IMG/VR virus record: IMGVR_UViG_3300034073_002123
Span: 1 to 35,253 of that record
DNA from: a virus
Strand: one strand, 5' to 3'
DNA length: 35,253 bases
This document shows, piece after piece, positions 3,993 to 35,253 of the stretch (its first letter is position 1; each line of letters opens with the position of its first letter). The position numbers and the translations under genes were made by a program. The notes beneath the pieces are model-generated. The model was not told the DNA's origin. It searched no databases and was given only the letters and a program-made list of their open reading frames with translations.

Positions 3993-4076
3993 ATGAAGAT
4001 GTGGCAAAACCCGGCTGCTTCCCGTAAGATCAGCAGTCGGTTATATTTTAAAAAATTAAAAAAAAATAAATTATGA
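3993..4076 (+). CDS. Possible 27-aa leader ORF coupled to the membrane protein gene
   Basis: A short basic frame begins MKMWQNPAASRKISSRLYF and ends in a TGA that overlaps the ATG of the next gene (ATGA at 4073-4076), as in translational coupling. The same bases hold the hairpin at 4011-4040. If the promoter at 3955-3988 is used, its start codon would be at the very 5' end of the message, so it may not be translated. It could be a chance frame. Confidence 0.25.
   Translation: MKMWQNPAASRKISSRLYFKKLKKNKL
4011..4040 (+). promoter_or_regulatory. Leader hairpin upstream of the membrane protein gene
   Basis: CCGGCTGC (4011-4018) pairs with GCAGTCGG (4033-4040) over 8 bp with one G-U pair and a 14-base loop. 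The local GC content is much higher than the surrounding A/T-rich spacer. It is followed by an A-rich rather than T-rich stretch, so it is not a typical terminator. It may stabilise the message or control translation of the gene at 4073. Confidence 0.4.
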
Positions 4077-4564
4077 AAGGAATTATCTTAACCATTCTAT
4101 GCGTATTATCAATATCAATATTTTGTATTGTAATTACAAAAAGTGTTCAAATTAATCAAAATTGCTTAGGATATTTAGAACGTGCGGCCAATGCTAATAC
4201 TGTTGAAATAGCAAGAAATGAGTTAAAAAAATCAATTGATTATTTAGAAGCAAATAATCTAACAAAAGGTTATACATCTATTTTATTTAAAACACCTGAT
4301 GAAGATATAGAATTTTGGTACAAAAATTTAAAAGAAAGTTATGGCGAATTAATGAAAGTTGATAGCAAAACTTCTTCCATTGAAAAAACAAATTTGCTGA
4401 TGAAATTAAGAGAAACTCTTATTGATAATAGTTCAAAAGATGATAATATAACTGTACCAAATGGCATATCAAGATACCCAAATAATTTAATGTGGGGGAT
4501 ATTGATTTTATTTGCAAGTTTAATAATGCTATTTTTAATATTATTAATAGCTGCAAATTTGTAA
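4073..4564 (+). CDS. Membrane protein with N- and C-terminal spans (163 aa)
   Basis: Residues 3-22 (GIILTILCVLSISIFCIVIT) and about 140-161 (LMWGILILFASLIMLFLILL) are hydrophobic spans. Between them is a charged, mostly helical domain of about 115 residues (ARNELKKSIDYLEANNL and TNLLMKLRETLIDNS). The two spans would place both ends on one side with the domain on the other, most likely in the periplasm. I recognise no family. Its early position and isolation from lysis genes suggest a host-takeover or exclusion role rather than lysis, but this is speculative. Confidence 0.65.
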   Translation: MKGIILTILCVLSISIFCIVITKSVQINQNCLGYLERAANANTVEIARNELKKSIDYLEANNLTKGYTSILFKTPDEDIEFWYKNLKESYGELMKVDSKTSSIEKTNLLMKLRETLIDNSSKDDNITVPNGISRYPNNLMWGILILFASLIMLFLILLIAANL

Positions 4565-4592
4565 AAAATGCAGCTAGTTATATTTAAAAAGA

Positions 4593-4627
4593 TATAAAGT
4601 AATTATACCGGAAGGTATTATACTTTA
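4593..4627 (+). terminator. A/T-rich hairpin after the membrane protein gene
   Basis: TATAAAGTAATTATACC (4593-4609) and GGTATTATACTTTA (4614-4627) form a long imperfect hairpin closed by a GGAA tetraloop; the inner ATACC/GGTAT stem is perfect. No T tract follows, so it would be a weak or RNA-processing signal rather than a classical terminator. It lies about 29 bases after the stop of the upstream gene. Confidence 0.35.
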
Positions 4628-4643
4628 AAGCATATAAAGTAAA

Positions 4644-4673
4644 ATAACGTTTCCGCAGCTTGGCGAGGTGCGG
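4644..4673 (+). repeat. TTGGCGA-loop hairpin repeat, copy 1
   Basis: The sequence ATAACGTTTCCGCAGCTT followed by GGCGAGGTGCGG forms a hairpin: CCGCA (4653-4657) with TGCGG (4669-4673), loop around TTGGCGA. It matches the element at 4917-4944 in its ATAACGTT start and its GCTTGGCGAG loop, while the stem sequences differ but remain paired. It lies upstream of the gene at 4726-4920, whose stop codon sits in copy 2, so that gene is bracketed by two copies. Confidence 0.6.
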
Positions 4674-4725
4674 TAATTGAACCACAAAACTTAAATAGAA
4701 TTACTAACTTTTAAATAACAACAAA

Positions 4726-4920
4726 ATGTCAAACGAAGAACTAAACCCCGACTTGAGGCAAACCGATGTTAGCAGCCGTTTAAATGTTTACGAGTACATT
4801 TGGTCAAAGGTGTTTCCAAATGAGGAATTGAACTATGATGACTTCTATGATTGGTCAAGAGAGAATGCTAATAGAGCCTTAGAGTTAGCTTTGGAATACT
4901 GCGACTTAAATGGCTTATAA
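4726..4920 (+). CDS. Hypothetical acidic protein (64 aa), bracketed by two hairpin repeats
   Basis: The product is acidic, starting SNEELNPDLRQTDVSSRLNVYEY and ending ANRALELALEYCDLNGL. No family is recognised. The stop codon is contained within the second TTGGCGA hairpin repeat, and the first copy lies about 50 bases upstream of the start, so the gene together with one repeat has the layout of a mobile gene cassette. The start is preceded by an AT-rich spacer ending AAATAACAACAAA, typical of Bacteroidota translation starts lacking a Shine-Dalgarno sequence. Confidence 0.6.
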   Translation: MSNEELNPDLRQTDVSSRLNVYEYIWSKVFPNEELNYDDFYDWSRENANRALELALEYCDLNGL

Positions 4921-4944
4921 CGTTTTCGGGCTTGGCGAAGGCTC
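4917..4944 (+). repeat. TTGGCGA-loop hairpin repeat, copy 2
   Basis: ATAACGTTTTCGGGCTTGGC plus GAAGGCTC can fold as GGGCTT with GAGCC-type partner (4928-4944), using G-U pairs, with loop GGCGA. The ATAACGTT start and CTTGGCGA loop are shared with copy 1, while the stem bases have changed in a largely compensating way. The following 100 bases to 5045 hold further short complementary stretches and no convincing ORF. Confidence 0.55.
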
Positions 4945-5045
4945 AAAAGATTGTAGCTTTTTATTAAGAAGCAAAAAACTAAAAGGCTAAGTTTCCTTGC
5001 CTAATCGGTGGGTTTTAGAAGCCTTATTTTTAAAAACAATAAATT

Positions 5046-5282
5046 ATGCAAACATCAATAGAATGGTTATGGGAACAAATACCTGTTGACTACACTTGTA
5101 AAAGGTCTGCATTTGAAGTATTTGAACAAGCCAAAGAAATGCACAAGCAGGAGATAATAGAAGATATAATAGGGTTTCAGATATACTTACACGATAATGG
5201 CTTAATTACTAACCACGATTGGGAATTTGAGAAATTGGCTAAATTGTATGTAAAAAAAGAATATGCAAGACTTAAAAAATAA
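5046..5282 (+). CDS. Small phage accessory protein, HKQEII family (78 aa)
   Basis: The product has an N-terminal SIEWLWEQI helix and a FEQAKEMHKQEIIEDIIGF helix, a pattern very common in small early genes of Bacteroidota phages and elements. It is paralogous to the next gene: both begin MQxSI and share an E-x-HKQEII helix. Function is unknown. It begins the tightly packed accessory operon, with only 3 bases to the following ATG. Confidence 0.7.
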   Translation: MQTSIEWLWEQIPVDYTCKRSAFEVFEQAKEMHKQEIIEDIIGFQIYLHDNGLITNHDWEFEKLAKLYVKKEYARLKK

Positions 5283-5285
5283 TTT

Positions 5286-5513
5286 ATGCAATCATCAATA
5301 CAAATGATAATTGAAGAGGTTAAGAGATTATCTAACCTATATGAAAATAAAATACCTTCTGCTTTATTATTTGAAACACTATTCAAAGCAGAAGAATTGC
5401 ATAAGCAGGAGATAATAGATGCACACGGAGTTAAAAAAATTTATACAGACGAAGTTTATCCAACAATAATTAATGGAGAACAATACTATCAAGAAACATT
5501 TAAAAAAGATTAG
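5286..5513 (+). CDS. Small phage accessory protein, HKQEIID family (75 aa)
   Basis: It is a paralogue of the preceding gene: MQSSIQMIIEEV start, then LFETLFKAEELHKQEIIDAHG, and a C-terminal GEQYYQETFKKD motif that I recognise from many small Bacteroidota phage proteins of unknown role. The final KKD and stop are encoded by the 17-bp junction sequence that recurs before several genes here. The next ATG is 2 bases after the stop, so transcription and probably translation are coupled. Confidence 0.7.
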   Translation: MQSSIQMIIEEVKRLSNLYENKIPSALLFETLFKAEELHKQEIIDAHGVKKIYTDEVYPTIINGEQYYQETFKKD

Positions 5514-5518
5514 TTATG
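5502..5518 (+). repeat. 17-bp gene-junction repeat, copy 1
   Basis: AAAAAAGATTAGTTATG covers the last codons and stop (KKD, TAG) of one gene and the ATG of the next. Exact copies lie at 6259-6275, 6513-6529 and 8094-8110, and a variant at 6881-6897. Confidence 0.85.
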
Positions 5519-5938
5519 GAGATAAAACCAGAATATGTAACATTTGAACAGAGTAAACTTCTTAAAGAAAAAGAGTTTGATGAAGCATGTACTCAATTTT
5601 ATCGTGAAGATGAAAAACTAGAGTTTGTACAATATTATGATTCAGCTGCTAAAAATTCTGTTTTTAATTTAGAAGATACTTGGTTTAGTGGTAGAAAAGA
5701 ATTTAAGCCAATAGCTGCTGCACCTGAACAACACATTGTGGTAGAATGGTTAAGAATTAAACATAATATTTGGGTTGACGTAAGTATTGACCAATTTTCT
5801 AAACCTAAAAACTTACAATGGATGTATTCTATTGTGTTTTTAAAAGATTGTACTTACTCTCATAGTCCTAAAAGTTATAACTCACCACAAGAAGCATATT
5901 CAGCAGCATTTGATTACATTTTAAAACAAATAATATGA
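5516..5938 (+). CDS. Hypothetical phage accessory protein (140 aa)
   Basis: The N-terminus (EIKPEYVTFEQSKLLKEKEFDEACTQFY) resembles the EQALELKELGFDE start of the two paralogues downstream, so it probably belongs to the same wider family. The rest contains IVVEWLRIKHNIWVDVSI and a C-terminal YNSPQEAYSAAFDYIL helix, typical of small Bacteroidota phage proteins of unknown function. It overlaps the next gene by 4 bases (ATGA). No catalytic motif, membrane span or signal peptide is visible. Confidence 0.7.
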   Translation: MEIKPEYVTFEQSKLLKEKEFDEACTQFYREDEKLEFVQYYDSAAKNSVFNLEDTWFSGRKEFKPIAAAPEQHIVVEWLRIKHNIWVDVSIDQFSKPKNLQWMYSIVFLKDCTYSHSPKSYNSPQEAYSAAFDYILKQII

Positions 5939-6270
5939 AAGAATTTATCCCATACGAACAAGCATTAGAACTTAAAGAACTTGGATTTGATGAATATGTT
6001 TTAGAATATTACAACACAGAAACTAAAGACTTTTGTCATGTAATGAAAGAGATTAAAGCACCACTATTCCAACAAGCGTTTCGTTGGTTCAGAGAGAAAT
6101 GTTCATTACATGGAGAAATATTTGGTCAACTAAGACCATCTAATAACTTTATGTATGCTTTAAAAATAGCAGGCACAGACATAATGAATGATGGTTTCAA
6201 AACCTATGAAGAAGCAGAACTTGCTTGTTTGAATAAGTTAATTGAGATTCTTAAAAAGAAAAAAGATTAG
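5935..6270 (+). CDS. EQALELKELGFDE-family accessory protein A (111 aa)
   Basis: It starts KEFIPYEQALELKELGFDE and ends FKTYEEAELACLNKLIEIL, with a variable middle (APLFQQAFRWFREKCSL). It is a close paralogue of the gene at 6527-6892: a 54-bp block near the start has one mismatch (5941-5994 against 6536-6589) and a 53-bp block near the end has three (6202-6254 against 6824-6876), while the centre is diverged. The family is widespread in Bacteroidota phages with no known function. It ends in KKD encoded by the shared junction repeat. Confidence 0.75.
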   Translation: MKEFIPYEQALELKELGFDEYVLEYYNTETKDFCHVMKEIKAPLFQQAFRWFREKCSLHGEIFGQLRPSNNFMYALKIAGTDIMNDGFKTYEEAELACLNKLIEILKKKKD

Positions 6271-6275
6271 TTATG
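6259..6275 (+). repeat. 17-bp gene-junction repeat, copy 2
   Basis: This is an exact copy of AAAAAAGATTAGTTATG, spanning the stop of the gene ending at 6270 and the ATG of the gene at 6273. Confidence 0.85.
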
Positions 6276-6524
6276 AAACCAGACCCAAAATTAATAGACT
6301 CAATGGCTCTAAGATATAGACATGATTTCGCTTTTTTAGACGAACAAACCAAAAATTCCATTAGAACCACTATGACTCAATTATGGGAGGAAGTAGTTGG
6401 GTTAGGATTTTATAGATATAAAAGTCTATATACACAAGAAGAAGTGTTAGAATTATTAAATGATTGCAGAGGAGAAAATCCTATTGATATTAGTAAATGG
6501 TTTGAACAATTTAAAAAAGATTAG
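6273..6524 (+). CDS. Hypothetical protein (83 aa)
   Basis: The product (KPDPKLIDSMALRYRHDFAF start, then TKNSIRTTMTQLWEEVVGLGFY and YTQEEVLELLNDC) is helical and soluble with no family I recognise. It lies between the two EQALELKELGFDE paralogues and is flanked on both sides by exact copies of the 17-bp junction repeat, so it could have been inserted as a module. Its C-terminus, FKKD, comes from the repeat. Confidence 0.65.
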   Translation: MKPDPKLIDSMALRYRHDFAFLDEQTKNSIRTTMTQLWEEVVGLGFYRYKSLYTQEEVLELLNDCRGENPIDISKWFEQFKKD

Positions 6525-6529
6525 TTATG
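6513..6529 (+). repeat. 17-bp gene-junction repeat, copy 3
   Basis: This is an exact copy of AAAAAAGATTAGTTATG, spanning the stop of the gene ending at 6524 and the ATG at 6527. A variant, AAAAATGATTAATTATG, follows at 6881-6897 at the next junction. Confidence 0.85.
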
Positions 6530-6892
6530 CAAACAGAATTCATCCCATACGAACAAGCATTAGAACTTAAAGAACTTGGATTTGATGAAGAATGTTTAGC
6601 ATATTATTTTAATAAGAAATTATCATTTGGTTCTAGAGCTTCATATGGAGAAGTAATTGAATCTCCACTATACCAACAAGCATTTAGATTTTTTCGAGAT
6701 AAAAAGTTATCTGATGCAAGTATTAATAGACACGGAGAAGCTGATGGTGGATATTCTTATAGATGGGAGATAGTGCATGAATATGGGGTGTACGAAGAAA
6801 GGCATTTTAAAATGGGATATAAGACCTACGAAGAAGCAGAACTTGCTTGTTTAAATAAGTTAATTGAGATTGTTAAAGAAAAAAATGATTAA
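6527..6892 (+). CDS. EQALELKELGFDE-family accessory protein B (121 aa)
   Basis: This is the second copy of the family in this block. The first 21 residues (QTEFIPYEQALELKELGFDE) and last 20 (KTYEEAELACLNKLIEIVKE) are nearly the same as in copy A at 5935-6270. The middle (residues about 25-95) differs strongly except for a shared PLYQQAFRxFR motif. The sharp change from near-identity to divergence suggests gene conversion at the ends or selection for change in the centre. Function is unknown. Confidence 0.75.
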   Translation: MQTEFIPYEQALELKELGFDEECLAYYFNKKLSFGSRASYGEVIESPLYQQAFRFFRDKKLSDASINRHGEADGGYSYRWEIVHEYGVYEERHFKMGYKTYEEAELACLNKLIEIVKEKND

Positions 6893-6894
6893 TT

Positions 6895-7161
6895 ATGACA
6901 GTAAAAGAAAAAGCAAAAGAACTGATAAATAAGTTTAAGCCGTTATGTAAAGATGTTAGACATACAGGAATACTTGATGGGCTCGCTACTGTTATGAATG
7001 ATGATATATTAAACCATTTTGCCTCTAAGCAATGCGCATTAATAGCAATTGATGAGATTATGAAACACATAGAAACTTCGTACTATAATGAAGATATTAT
7101 AAAAGGGGCAAAGTTATATTGGAAAGAAGTAAAAAAAGAAATAGAAATTTATGAAAATTAA
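6895..7161 (+). CDS. Small phage accessory protein (88 aa)
   Basis: The layout, TVKEKAKELINKFKPLCKDV, then FASKQCALIAIDEIMKHIE and KLYWKEVKKEIEIYEN, is a familiar one in Bacteroidota phages (KAxELxxKF, AKxCALIAVDEI, YWxxVKxEI). It is probably a small helical protein; its function is unknown. It overlaps the next gene by 11 bases. Confidence 0.7.
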   Translation: MTVKEKAKELINKFKPLCKDVRHTGILDGLATVMNDDILNHFASKQCALIAIDEIMKHIETSYYNEDIIKGAKLYWKEVKKEIEIYEN

Positions 7162-7450
7162 ACTACAAGAGTATTCACTTATCAGTAATGAGTGGATAGA
7201 AGAAAGAATTAAAAAATTAAACAAGTCTTATACGCACTCAAACATCATTGGCAATGTAATAAGATGTAATTTTATTAATGATGAGTTAGAATATTTGGAA
7301 GAACTTAAACAGCAACTAATCCCATTGGAAAAACTTGTTGATAATGTATATGATGAACTTATAGGATGCTCTGGTAATATTGTATCAGAAAAGCTTTTAT
7401 ATGACCAAAGAAAACAAGATTACCTAAACTCTGAAATAGAAATACAATGA
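7151..7450 (+). CDS. Hypothetical helical protein (99 aa)
   Basis: The sequence is mostly charged helix: SNEWIEERIKKLNKSY, then FINDELEYLEELKQQLIPLE and KLLYDQRKQDYLNSE. A short coiled coil is plausible around residues 38-60. No family is recognised. It overlaps the previous gene by 11 bases and the next by 4 (ATGA), consistent with tight operon packing. Confidence 0.6.
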   Translation: MKIKLQEYSLISNEWIEERIKKLNKSYTHSNIIGNVIRCNFINDELEYLEELKQQLIPLEKLVDNVYDELIGCSGNIVSEKLLYDQRKQDYLNSEIEIQ

Positions 7451-7992
7451 AAGGTTATTTACATAAAACAGAACAAGGATGGGTGGTCAAACATTTACAA
7501 ACCGAACCTAAGTATATTGGAGAAAGACAGTCTTTACAAGGAGTCTTTATACATCCACATTATGTAGCACTATGCTCTCATTCATTTTATGAAGGTAAAG
7601 AAATACAATTTGAAATATTACAAGAAGCAAATGGGTTTTTATATGCCCATCTATATAAAAATACGAAAGAACAACAAAAGCAACTCATTACAGAAATAAT
7701 GGAAGAAGATGCTAAGGATGGGTTGTATGAAGATACATCTCATCGAGGTAATCCTCGACCAAATGATGTTCAGAAATTAGCAGAAGAATATATAACCACA
7801 CCTAAACAAAAACCTGAAGAATCAGATGGGTATAATGGATATGATGTATTTAAAGCATATATAGATGGTTATAACAAAGCCAAAGAAACCCTATATACAG
7901 AGAAACAAGTTAAATTCATTGTTGAGAAAAGCAGAGAAACAGGATTAACTGCTAAATACTTAATGTTATCACTTAAACAACCTAAAAAATGA
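7447..7992 (+). CDS. Hypothetical phage accessory protein (181 aa)
   Basis: The N-terminal part (GYLHKTEQGWVVKHLQ and later GKEIQFEILQEANGFLYAHL) looks like a small beta domain. The C-terminal part (DVQKLAEEYI, FKAYIDGYNKAKETLYTEKQ) is a helical motif I have seen in many small Bacteroidota phage proteins. The fusion of the two patterns is typical of this accessory pool. Function is unknown. The 3' end contains a 16-bp sequence (7974-7989) repeated at the end of the next small gene. Confidence 0.65.
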   Translation: MKGYLHKTEQGWVVKHLQTEPKYIGERQSLQGVFIHPHYVALCSHSFYEGKEIQFEILQEANGFLYAHLYKNTKEQQKQLITEIMEEDAKDGLYEDTSHRGNPRPNDVQKLAEEYITTPKQKPEESDGYNGYDVFKAYIDGYNKAKETLYTEKQVKFIVEKSRETGLTAKYLMLSLKQPKK

Positions 7993-8105
7993 TACAAATA
8001 ATAAATGGCAGACTTTATTACTTGGGTGAATATGGCAATTTGTTTATAGATATAACTGACAAATTTGCTAATTATTATTTAGATAAACAACCTAAAAAAG
8101 ATTAG
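7989..8105 (+). CDS. Very small protein (38 aa) between direct repeats
   Basis: The ATG overlaps the preceding stop (ATGA at 7989-7992) and the frame runs for 38 codons to TAG at 8103. The product starts MIQIINGRLYYLGEYGNLFI and continues with an NYYLDKQPKKD tail. TAAACAACCTAAAAAA occurs at 7974-7989 and again at 8084-8099, so the gene lies between 16-bp direct repeats 110 bp apart. Coupled start, absence of gaps and codon use like its neighbours support a real gene. Confidence 0.5.
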   Translation: MIQIINGRLYYLGEYGNLFIDITDKFANYYLDKQPKKD

Positions 8106-8110
8106 TTATG
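8094..8110 (+). repeat. 17-bp gene-junction repeat, copy 4
   Basis: This is an exact copy of AAAAAAGATTAGTTATG spanning the stop of the 38-aa gene and the ATG at 8108. Confidence 0.85.
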
Positions 8111-8377
8111 AAGATACAAGAAGCTATAGATATATTAAAAATTCACCAACAATGGAGGTTAGGAGCTGATATAGAAATGCTAGAACCTAAAAAAATAAGT
8201 GAGGCTATCAATGTAATTATATTACAATTTGCACAAAAAGAAATATCAGATGAAGAAATTTTAAATGCAGCAAAAGAATCAAAACTTGAAGATTTAATTA
8301 TTTCAGTAGGTTCATTTGAATTAGGTGCACGATGGTATAGAGAACAATTAAAAAAACGAGTCGGTTACAAATTGTAA
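8108..8377 (+). CDS. Small phage accessory protein (89 aa), last gene of the early unit
   Basis: The motif IDILKIHQQWRLGADIEMLEPKKISEAINVII is a common one in Bacteroidota phages and conjugative elements (LxxHNxWRRGxxxxMxxPxxIxxAI). A C-terminal LGARWYREQLKKR segment follows. Function is unknown. It is the last plus-strand gene before the convergent late operon; its stop lies inside the palindrome at 8359-8387. Confidence 0.7.
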   Translation: MKIQEAIDILKIHQQWRLGADIEMLEPKKISEAINVIILQFAQKEISDEEILNAAKESKLEDLIISVGSFELGARWYREQLKKRVGYKL

Positions 8378-8986: not shown

Positions 8987-9231
8987 GGCTGTTCTTTTTT
9001 CTGTTCATAATCTTTTACATACTTAAGCAGCTTTCTTTGTGCGGCAAATACTATTCTGTAAGTGTTACGTTTTACAGTATTAACATCTTCCATTTCATCT
9101 TCATAAGTACGGTATTGCGGCTCTGATAATTCTGCAAGGGTAGCGATTACCTCAAGTTGGTTGCTGATAATATCGAGCAACTCAAAGCCCGTATATTCAG
9201 GAAATTCAGGTATCTGTGTTTCTTCACTCAT
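8983..9231 (-). CDS. Hypothetical protein in the lysis region (82 aa)
   Basis: The acidic, helical product starts SEETQIPEFPEYTGFELLDI and ends LKYVKDYEQKKEQP. I recognise no family. It overlaps both neighbours by 4 bases (ATGA at each side), so it is almost certainly translated from the late message between the phosphoesterase and the endolysin. Confidence 0.65.
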   Translation of the reverse strand: MSEETQIPEFPEYTGFELLDIISNQLEVIATLAELSEPQYRTYEDEMEDVNTVKRNTYRIVFAAQRKLLKYVKDYEQKKEQP

Positions 9232-11151: not shown

Positions 11152-11724
11152 TTAAAATTTAGTGACTAATTTAGAAGCTGTCCTTGCAATAGGTTTTCTG
11201 AACAATAACATTAGTAGAATCAATATCCACCAGTAAAGGTTATTCCTTTGCCTTTTATACTTATCCGCCTTTTCTTTTTCTACTGTGTAGTCTTTGTAAG
11301 CGGCTATGTACTCTTTATGTTTATCCTTTACATCTTGAGTCAACATATCAATAATAACTGTCAAGGAATCCTTTACAATCTGAAGTTTACGTGTATTCTC
11401 TACAGTCTTTGTAATGTACTTGTATTTGATAACAGGCACTTTCTTTTCCTGAAATACGGTTACTATTTCACGCTTAACCGAATCTGAAACCTGACTACCT
11501 AACAAAGAATCGAGCATCGAATAAAGGTAAACGAACTCCATTTCGTATGCCTGTAACATTGCAGAATCAATAATAGTAACCGTATCTGTAGTTTCCTTTA
11601 TTGGAAACACCTCCTCACATTTCTTTGCAGCCATAATTGGCTTTTTGTCAAAAAATTTATCCAGCTTTTTAGGAAGCAAGCAGGACTGAAATAAAAGCCC
11701 AAATATCAGAATATACTTAGTCAT
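11152..11724 (-). CDS. Probable unimolecular spanin (u-spanin) lipoprotein
   Basis: The 190-residue protein has a lipoprotein signal with lipobox-like FQSC (Cys15) at its N-terminus, a long charged periplasmic section with predicted coiled coil (DMLTQDVKDKHKEYIAAYKD and KEKADKYKRQRNN), and a C-terminal span LYWWILILLMLLF followed by basic residues. An outer-membrane lipid anchor plus an inner-membrane C-terminal span is the layout of u-spanins, which disrupt the outer membrane in the last step of lysis. No family match is claimed; assignment is by architecture and position. It overlaps the next upstream gene by 8 bases. Confidence 0.65.
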   Translation of the reverse strand: MTKYILIFGLLFQSCLLPKKLDKFFDKKPIMAAKKCEEVFPIKETTDTVTIIDSAMLQAYEMEFVYLYSMLDSLLGSQVSDSVKREIVTVFQEKKVPVIKYKYITKTVENTRKLQIVKDSLTVIIDMLTQDVKDKHKEYIAAYKDYTVEKEKADKYKRQRNNLYWWILILLMLLFRKPIARTASKLVTKF

Positions 11725-33755: not shown

Positions 33756-34301
33756 ATGAAAGAGTTATTATCAATTCAGGCCGAACTCAAAGCGCCTAAG
33801 AATCAGTTTAACGCATTCGGTAAGTATAAGTACCGGAATGCAGAGGATATTCTAGAAGCTGTTAAGCCGTTATTGTTGAAATACAATTGCACGTTAACGC
33901 TTAGCGATGAAATTAAAGAAACTTGCGGAGGTCTTGTTTATGTCGAATCGACTGCAATATTTAGACATTTTGAAGAAGATTACATTGATGTAAAAGCACA
34001 AGCTGGTATTGACGTAAACCGCAAAGGGATGGATATAGCGCAGAGTTTTGGTAGCTCCTCCAGTTATTCTCGGAAATATGCTTTGCAAGGATTGTTTTTG
34101 TTAGATGACAGCCGAGATCCAGACGCTACAAACACACACGGTAAAGAGCAACCTACAAGGGAAGAGAAAGACGCTTTGATTAGGCAAACTGAAAAGCTAC
34201 CTGAAGAAAGAAGGGCAAAGGCTATTGCTGCCATAAACAAAGCAGAAACTAAGGACGAATTTATTAAACTTGAAACCGCACTTAAACAAATAAAACCTTA
34301 A
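33756..34301 (+). CDS. ERF family single-strand annealing protein (181 aa)
   Basis: The ERF motif is clear: ELLSIQAELKAPKNQFNAFG, the YKYRNAEDILEAVKPLLLKY stretch, and GMDIAQSFGSSSSYSRKYAL followed by QGLFLLDD. ERF proteins bind single-stranded DNA and anneal complementary strands in phage recombination, often helping genome circularisation. The C-terminal part (TREEKDALIRQTEKLPEERR) is helical and charged. No exonuclease partner is adjacent, though the VRR-NUC protein is in the same operon. Confidence 0.9.
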   Translation: MKELLSIQAELKAPKNQFNAFGKYKYRNAEDILEAVKPLLLKYNCTLTLSDEIKETCGGLVYVESTAIFRHFEEDYIDVKAQAGIDVNRKGMDIAQSFGSSSSYSRKYALQGLFLLDDSRDPDATNTHGKEQPTREEKDALIRQTEKLPEERRAKAIAAINKAETKDEFIKLETALKQIKP

Positions 34302-35057: not shown

Positions 35058-35253
35058 ATGACCGCAAAAGAAGCATTAAAAGAGATAAAAGATTACTTTA
35101 ACCTCGATCTGCTTCCTTATTCAGAGCAAAGGCTGCTTTCAATACTGCAAATGCTCGATAAAACAAAGACCATTACAAAGATTAAAAAGGTCTATGTTCA
35201 TAATGAAAAGGAAGCGGAGCATGATGAAAAAAGGTTAGATCTGATTGAGGAAG
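35058..35253 (+). CDS. DnaA domain IV protein, 5' part (continues at base 1)
   Basis: ATG 35058 begins TAKEALKEIKDYFNLDLLPY and stays open through the end of the window. The last 127 bases duplicate the first 127, and joining 35126 to 1 continues the same frame to the stop at 369, giving a 145-residue protein. The start follows the DUF736-like stop by 2 bases. See the entry at 1-369 for domains. Confidence 0.88.
   Translation, partial: MTAKEALKEIKDYFNLDLLPYSEQRLLSILQMLDKTKTITKIKKVYVHNEKEAEHDEKRLDLIEE
35127..35253. repeat. Terminal direct repeat, right copy
   Basis: This segment is identical to bases 1-127. See the left copy. Only one copy should be counted when genes or composition are analysed. 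Confidence 0.93.

Follow-up and report, generated by a model that had tools for sequence, protein, structure and literature searches.

Results and discussion

Copies of the 17-mer and the genes they join

We examined a short repeat, the 17-mer AAAAAAGATTAGTTATG, which recurs at gene borders in an array of small genes in the IMG/VR virus record IMGVR_UViG_3300034073_002123. The window, that is, the whole stretch of DNA analysed, is this record at its full length of 35,253 bp (34% G+C), and it is that of an uncultivated phage of Bacteroidota type. Four exact copies of the 17-mer and one variant with two mismatches (AAAAATGATTAATTATG) span positions 5502 to 8110, and all of them, like the genes they join, lie on the plus strand. 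Copy 1 (5502–5518) ends a 75-amino acid (aa) gene with the recurrent tail EQYYQETFKKD (5286–5513) and starts a 140-aa gene assigned to phrog_12005, of unknown function (5516–5938). Copy 2 (6259–6275) ends a 111-aa gene (5935–6270), a paralogue of 6527–6892 (phrog_25117), and starts an 83-aa gene of unknown function (6273–6524), which is ended in turn by copy 3 (6513–6529). The 121-aa gene started by copy 3 (6527–6892) is ended by the variant (6881–6897), which starts an 88-aa gene (6895–7161). Finally, copy 4 (8094–8110) ends an open reading frame (ORF) at 7989–8105 and starts an 89-aa gene (8108–8377). Each exact copy reads AAA AAA GAT TAG TT ATG, in which the final codons and the stop of one gene are followed by two bases and the start of the next; the upstream proteins therefore end in KKD.

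These positions, reported in a first-pass annotation of the same DNA, were confirmed and lie far above chance. When up to three mismatches were allowed, 9 matches were found against 0.91 expected from shuffles, and none of 100 shuffles reached 9; over the whole record, the pattern occurs four times in the forward orientation and not once in reverse or as the control. The length of 17 bp holds for the exact core, but matches extend further: positions 5493–5518 and 6504–6529 agree over about 26 nucleotides (nt), and copy 4 has an extended form, TAAACAACCT followed by the 17-mer, which begins at 8084 and is matched at 93–100% by many other contigs. The repeat is not present at all junctions of the array: an ATGA overlap starts the genes at 5935 and 7447, and the start at 7989 overlaps the preceding stop. 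Nor are all of the flanking genes unrelated, as had been supposed. Some are, but 5935–6270 and 6527–6892 are paralogues with 49% aa identity, the genes starting at 5046 and 5286 are likewise paralogues, and 5516–5938 shares its N-terminus with the 5935–6270 and 6527–6892 pair.

Distribution of the string and its peptide tails

Among IMG/VR contigs (referred to below by our handles, such as L058), the exact 17-mer was found in 53 and the form with a TAA stop in at least 119, compared with 11 for a reversed control; these matches include chance matches and other phage genes, not gene junctions alone. In 61 genomes from the genus of a Flavobacterium metagenome-assembled genome (MAG) that carries an array word, the TAG form was found 0 times, the TAA form 9 times, and the control once.

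It could be argued that the string is nothing more than a 3' end common to a small number of widespread protein families, kept by conservation of the C-terminus and devoid of any border function. Two tail families, YYxETFK and SLKQPK, account for many junctions, and their tails recur with other endings as well, e.g. NK*TAAGATG. However, at least 12 other tails end in the same string, and the ending after a tail varies so widely that KKD is not a required C-terminus. The tails are also far commoner than the string, since 112 YYxETFK tails sampled regardless of junction included none with the TAG form and few with the TAA form. This explanation is weakened further by 27 cases with an upstream gene that ends outside the KKD frame. 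The string is untranslated in most of them, lying behind a gene that has already stopped (e.g. L017, L043, L141, L410, L438, L452, and L492), and several untranslated copies keep the AACCT extension or follow a terminator-like hairpin. L028 and L236 are among the cases with an upstream gene that stops in a second frame, at a TAA formed by a preceding T and the A-run. In L410, the untranslated stretch still spells the old tail WYRKQLKQPKKD. Because the string is found untranslated after an earlier stop, it appears to be a DNA or RNA element, the KKD endings of the different proteins being a side effect, and we consider an origin as a conserved 3' end unlikely.

Two further observations concern the tails. 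The exact junction AAAAACAAATAAGATGAAA, which ends in NK*, precedes apparently different genes in L168, L177, L190, L194, and L219. In L044, there is an apparent mini-gene of about 20 aa in which the head AVEWLV is joined directly to the tail KQYYNETFKKD.

Start context

The other starts of this phage are A-rich at −14 to −10 and at −3. In F. johnsoniae, A at −12/−13, −6, and −3 accompanies stronger initiation (PMC6847099), and the A6 run of the 17-mer, at −14 to −9, agrees with the A-rich initiation region expected in Bacteroidota (about −14 to −11). The proposal of the first-pass annotation that the repeat is a stop-start signal thus gains support from the sequence preferred around other starts of the phage and from the untranslated copies. 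The same agreement would be expected if the string were purely a start-context signal that had emerged several times under selection and was never copied. However, the exact 14-nt leader has a probability of about 2e-7 per leader under the start preference of the phage alone. In addition, among 3778 compact junctions that were not selected for the string, the A-rich end AAAAAAGAT occurs at 15 of the 101 TARTT junctions against 2 of the 3484 at other spacings, so that the string behaves as one unit; several untranslated copies also have the same upstream extension. Since start preference does not explain exact recurrence, common descent of the copies is most likely, and repeated origin by selection is, in our view, quite improbable.

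Local tandem duplication of neighbouring genes would be another source of the copies in the window. It holds for one pair, as copy 2 and the variant occupy paralogous positions at the 3' ends of the two paralogues 5935–6270 and 6527–6892 (repeat family D1). However, the starts of these paralogues have different leaders (an ATGA overlap and the 17-mer, respectively), copies 1 and 4 belong to other families, and the joining of other genes by the same string in other phages refutes duplication as a full account; that it produced all of the copies is very improbable. A programmed −1 frameshift at the A6 run, fusing neighbouring proteins, would fit the 2-nt gap, which puts the downstream gene in the −1 frame, and the string, which is open there (AAA AGA TTA GTT ATG), but it is rejected almost outright as the run is out of the zero-frame register that the classical A AAA AAG slippery heptamer has, structure prediction gave no stimulatory element, and untranslated copies exist.

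Around the four exact copies, RNA structure prediction gave no significant or stable structure and no inverted repeat, and no terminator-like sites were found at the copies in the window. Matches to sigma-70-like promoters in the region were at shuffle level only, although a phage-specific promoter could escape detection, and a Bacteroidota-type promoter pattern was at chance level in the window.

Homology edges at the string

We compared 107 non-redundant junctions that have genes both upstream and downstream, which yielded 119 pairs that share the upstream flank only, 43 that share the downstream flank only, and 27 that share both. In L036 and L038, the upstream genes are 92% identical, and the match runs to within 1 base of the ATG of the string, where unrelated genes begin. 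The same upstream gene in L033 is followed by a third, different gene; here, its stop lies two codons earlier and the leader has diverged. Copies in the window behave in a similar manner. The 41 nt that end with the ATG of copy 1 (5478–5518) are 97.6% identical to positions 8996–9036 of L058, the closest relative, and the next genes differ. Downstream of copy 3, 45 nt are 87% identical to L501, in which the TAA form follows an unrelated upstream gene. The check suggested by the first-pass annotation, whether module borders in related phages coincide with the repeat, was positive: homology often ends at the 17-mer, different genes follow, and gene order across it is not stable. A step in the identity profile at junctions is no independent evidence, as the pairs were chosen on that contrast.

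The 83-aa gene at 6273–6524 had been singled out as a swapped module. It does have a copy at each end, but no transfer of this gene was demonstrated, and the clear case is instead a 26-aa gene flanked by two leaders, which is 93% identical in L017 and L043 amid differing surroundings; the match ends within about 20 nt of each leader. A cassette of the same 26-aa type (MNSYIVVLALFLGFVLG) is also present on the minus strand of L141, at about 11350–11470, where it is followed by an untranslated copy of the 3' end of the preceding gene (WYREQLKQRQ). Judged from this arrangement, it looks as if the cassette was inserted with duplication of that 3' end.

Accessory island and relatives

All copies of the 17-mer lie in an accessory island of about 4.3 kb on the plus strand (4035–8367), the edges of which are the only two copies of the direct repeat AGTCGGTTA in the window, at 4035 and 8359. 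In L062, a single AGTCGGTTA copy joins both flanks and the island is missing, and two copies in L066 are just 244 bp apart. L058 (6243, 6778, and 9945) has an additional, third copy, which follows the 163-aa gene. This repeat is a putative second type of module border. The backbone of L058 is about 90% identical to the window on both sides of the island, and its array is largely replaced: past a 64-aa gene, the array survives as short tracts only, and in one of these the tail EQYYQ[ED]TFKKD and the string are kept and a different gene follows. Just before the left border, positions 4011–4041 of the window form a strong predicted hairpin (−14.6 kcal/mol, z −2.4), the sequence of which L058, L062, and L066 largely share.

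A candidate stop-and-restart linker

We favour, with some confidence, the interpretation that the 17-mer is a self-contained stop-and-restart linker for gene borders, which acts at the DNA or RNA level and has spread together with small accessory genes. Any gene that reads into it in the KKD frame would be ended by its TAG or TAA; where it is extended by AACCT or ACATTT, there would be an additional stop in a second frame. It would also provide an A-rich, non-Shine-Dalgarno leader of the kind favoured by Bacteroidota ribosomes in a region that is presumably kept unstructured, and the ATG located two bases past the stop should favour re-initiation by the terminating ribosome. Since stop, leader, and start all come with the linker, a small gene that carries it could follow nearly any other gene without losing its translation, which is probably coupled to that of the preceding gene. 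The string may have spread by illegitimate or short-homology recombination within the hypervariable island, probably assisted by the phage's Erf-like single-strand annealing protein, a candidate recombinase encoded at 33756–34301 on the plus strand (phrog_155, E 9.6e-40); some of the crossing-over may fall inside the string itself.

Several points weigh against this interpretation. Shared ancestry of the two tail families explains part of the recurrence. The TAG form has G at position −3 in place of the favoured A, which is present in the TAA form and in the variant at 6881. The discordant share among downstream-shared and upstream-shared pairs was 0.41/0.61 at the 17-mer, compared with 0.90/0.39 at ATGA junctions, 0.22/0.17 at TAATG junctions, and 0.68/0.59 at other compact junctions, with sampling uneven between the junction classes and an endolysin control of only 2 sequences, too few to be of use; as there is no excess over the other borders of the same contigs, the string may simply mark ordinary gene borders. 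The 17-bp core is shorter than the Red-beta pairing minimum of 23–27 bp (PMC3945230), and only the extended forms, at 26–28 bp, reach that range. Moreover, gene 9034–9303 of L058 is a fusion of pieces that match 7447–7992 (at 7657–7731) and 8108–8377 (at 8240–8356, in its 3' part), and it shows breakpoints inside genes, at other conserved words. The notion of a recombination hot spot, put forward by the first-pass annotation, is not borne out by this discordance or by the length of the core; the hot-spot and stop-start ideas are compatible with each other.

As a tentative extension of the linker interpretation, it is possible, although we would not expect it, that Bacteroidota phages share a pool of small-gene cassettes with a universal stop-and-restart linker. 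Annealing between extended copies of 26–28 bp would then exchange single genes precisely and without a dedicated integrase, and each new neighbour would automatically be translated.

How phages can swap single small genes and keep them expressed is a long-standing problem in modular evolution. In the present case, stop, leader, and start are all part of the border, which lends itself to comparison among many environmental phages of a phylum that makes no use of Shine-Dalgarno sequences. This may give a simple rule for the exchange sites of small accessory genes and help to delimit such genes in uncultivated phages.

Comparison with known systems

The nearest known kind of element is the Start-Associated Sequence (SAS) of Cluster K mycobacteriophages (PMC3203893) and Microbacterium Cluster EF phages (PMC7302621), but the 17-mer is not a member of it. 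Both are short, unusually conserved, mostly in one orientation, located at the starts of non-structural genes of different families, and rare outside the phages concerned, and the SAS sometimes includes the upstream stop codon. However, the SAS is a GC-rich sequence of 13 bp with a GGGATAGGAGCCC-like consensus and a Shine-Dalgarno core, whereas the 17-mer is AT-rich and has no AGGAG. At about half of the SAS sites there is an extended form (ESAS) with imperfect 17-bp inverted repeats, which the 17-mer lacks. Unlike the SAS, the 17-mer holds a start as well as a stop (in the KKD frame), and the homology edges of exchanged genes lie on it.

T4-type phages reportedly carry promoter-stem-loop cassettes (PeSL; Arbiol 2010 and Comeau 2014, as cited in PMC4503421). 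PeSL elements resemble the 17-mer as short repeats at the borders of shuffled modules; they differ in placing an early promoter and a terminator stem-loop between genes, neither of which was found at the copies of the 17-mer, which is mostly embedded in coding sequence. The Kozak-like initiation region of Bacteroidota (PMC6847099) is similarly A-rich at −14 to −9, but it is a general compositional preference and not an exact repeat tied to a stop. A further comparison is with relaxed recombination of the Rad52-like (Erf-type) kind and module exchange in temperate phages (PMC3945230). Mosaic exchange and a phage-encoded annealing protein are common to that system and to the phage studied here; the differences are that the core of the 17-mer falls short of the pairing minimum given there for Red-beta and that exchange at the 17-mer, or by the Erf-like protein, is putative.

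Other features of the array and the record

The 88-aa gene at 6895–7161 belongs to a family marked by M-T-[PA]-KEKA and QCALIAxDEI (phrog_21441). A match of the same gene to the Pfam family RTP scored 18.8 bits, below the cut-off of 26.7, and was not used. A 181-aa gene on the plus strand (7447–7992) contains the recurrent words KEQQKQLITEIM and SLKQPKK, and two exact 16-nt copies of TAAACAACCTAAAAAA (7974–8099, plus strand; family D14), 110 bp apart, bracket most of the 38-aa ORF at 7989–8105. If this 110-bp piece were absent, gene 7447 would have at its end the standard junction, SLKQPKKD, known from other contigs.

DNA words of 20–70 nt from the array recur at 85–100% identity in many otherwise different contigs. 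Synonymous codons in the recurrent words are far from background (e.g. GCC, 86% vs 7%), which favours copied DNA over convergent peptides, and the small phage proteins appear to be assembled from a limited vocabulary of words. Short DNA words were noted at 5114–5161, 5474–5518, 7117–7162, 7666–7734, 7867–7912, 7968–7989, 8226–8259, and 8332–8357.

Comparison of the array proteins with protein families returned only PHROGs of unknown function. A tblastn search with two of them, one query being a composite consensus, found no relatives among deposited phages, and DNA comparison with deposited phages gave short, weak matches only. The array protein word AKQCALIAVDEI is present in MAGs of Flavobacterium, Sediminibacterium, and Saprospiraceae, a distribution suggestive of Bacteroidota hosts. 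Recognisable products of the record include a primase/helicase, the Erf-like annealing protein, a terminase, a portal, and a major head protein; structural genes are mostly on the minus strand and replication genes on the plus strand. Positions 1–127 and 35127–35253 form an exact terminal repeat of 127 bp, and the record therefore probably represents a complete genome, assembled as a circle, of about 35.1 kb.

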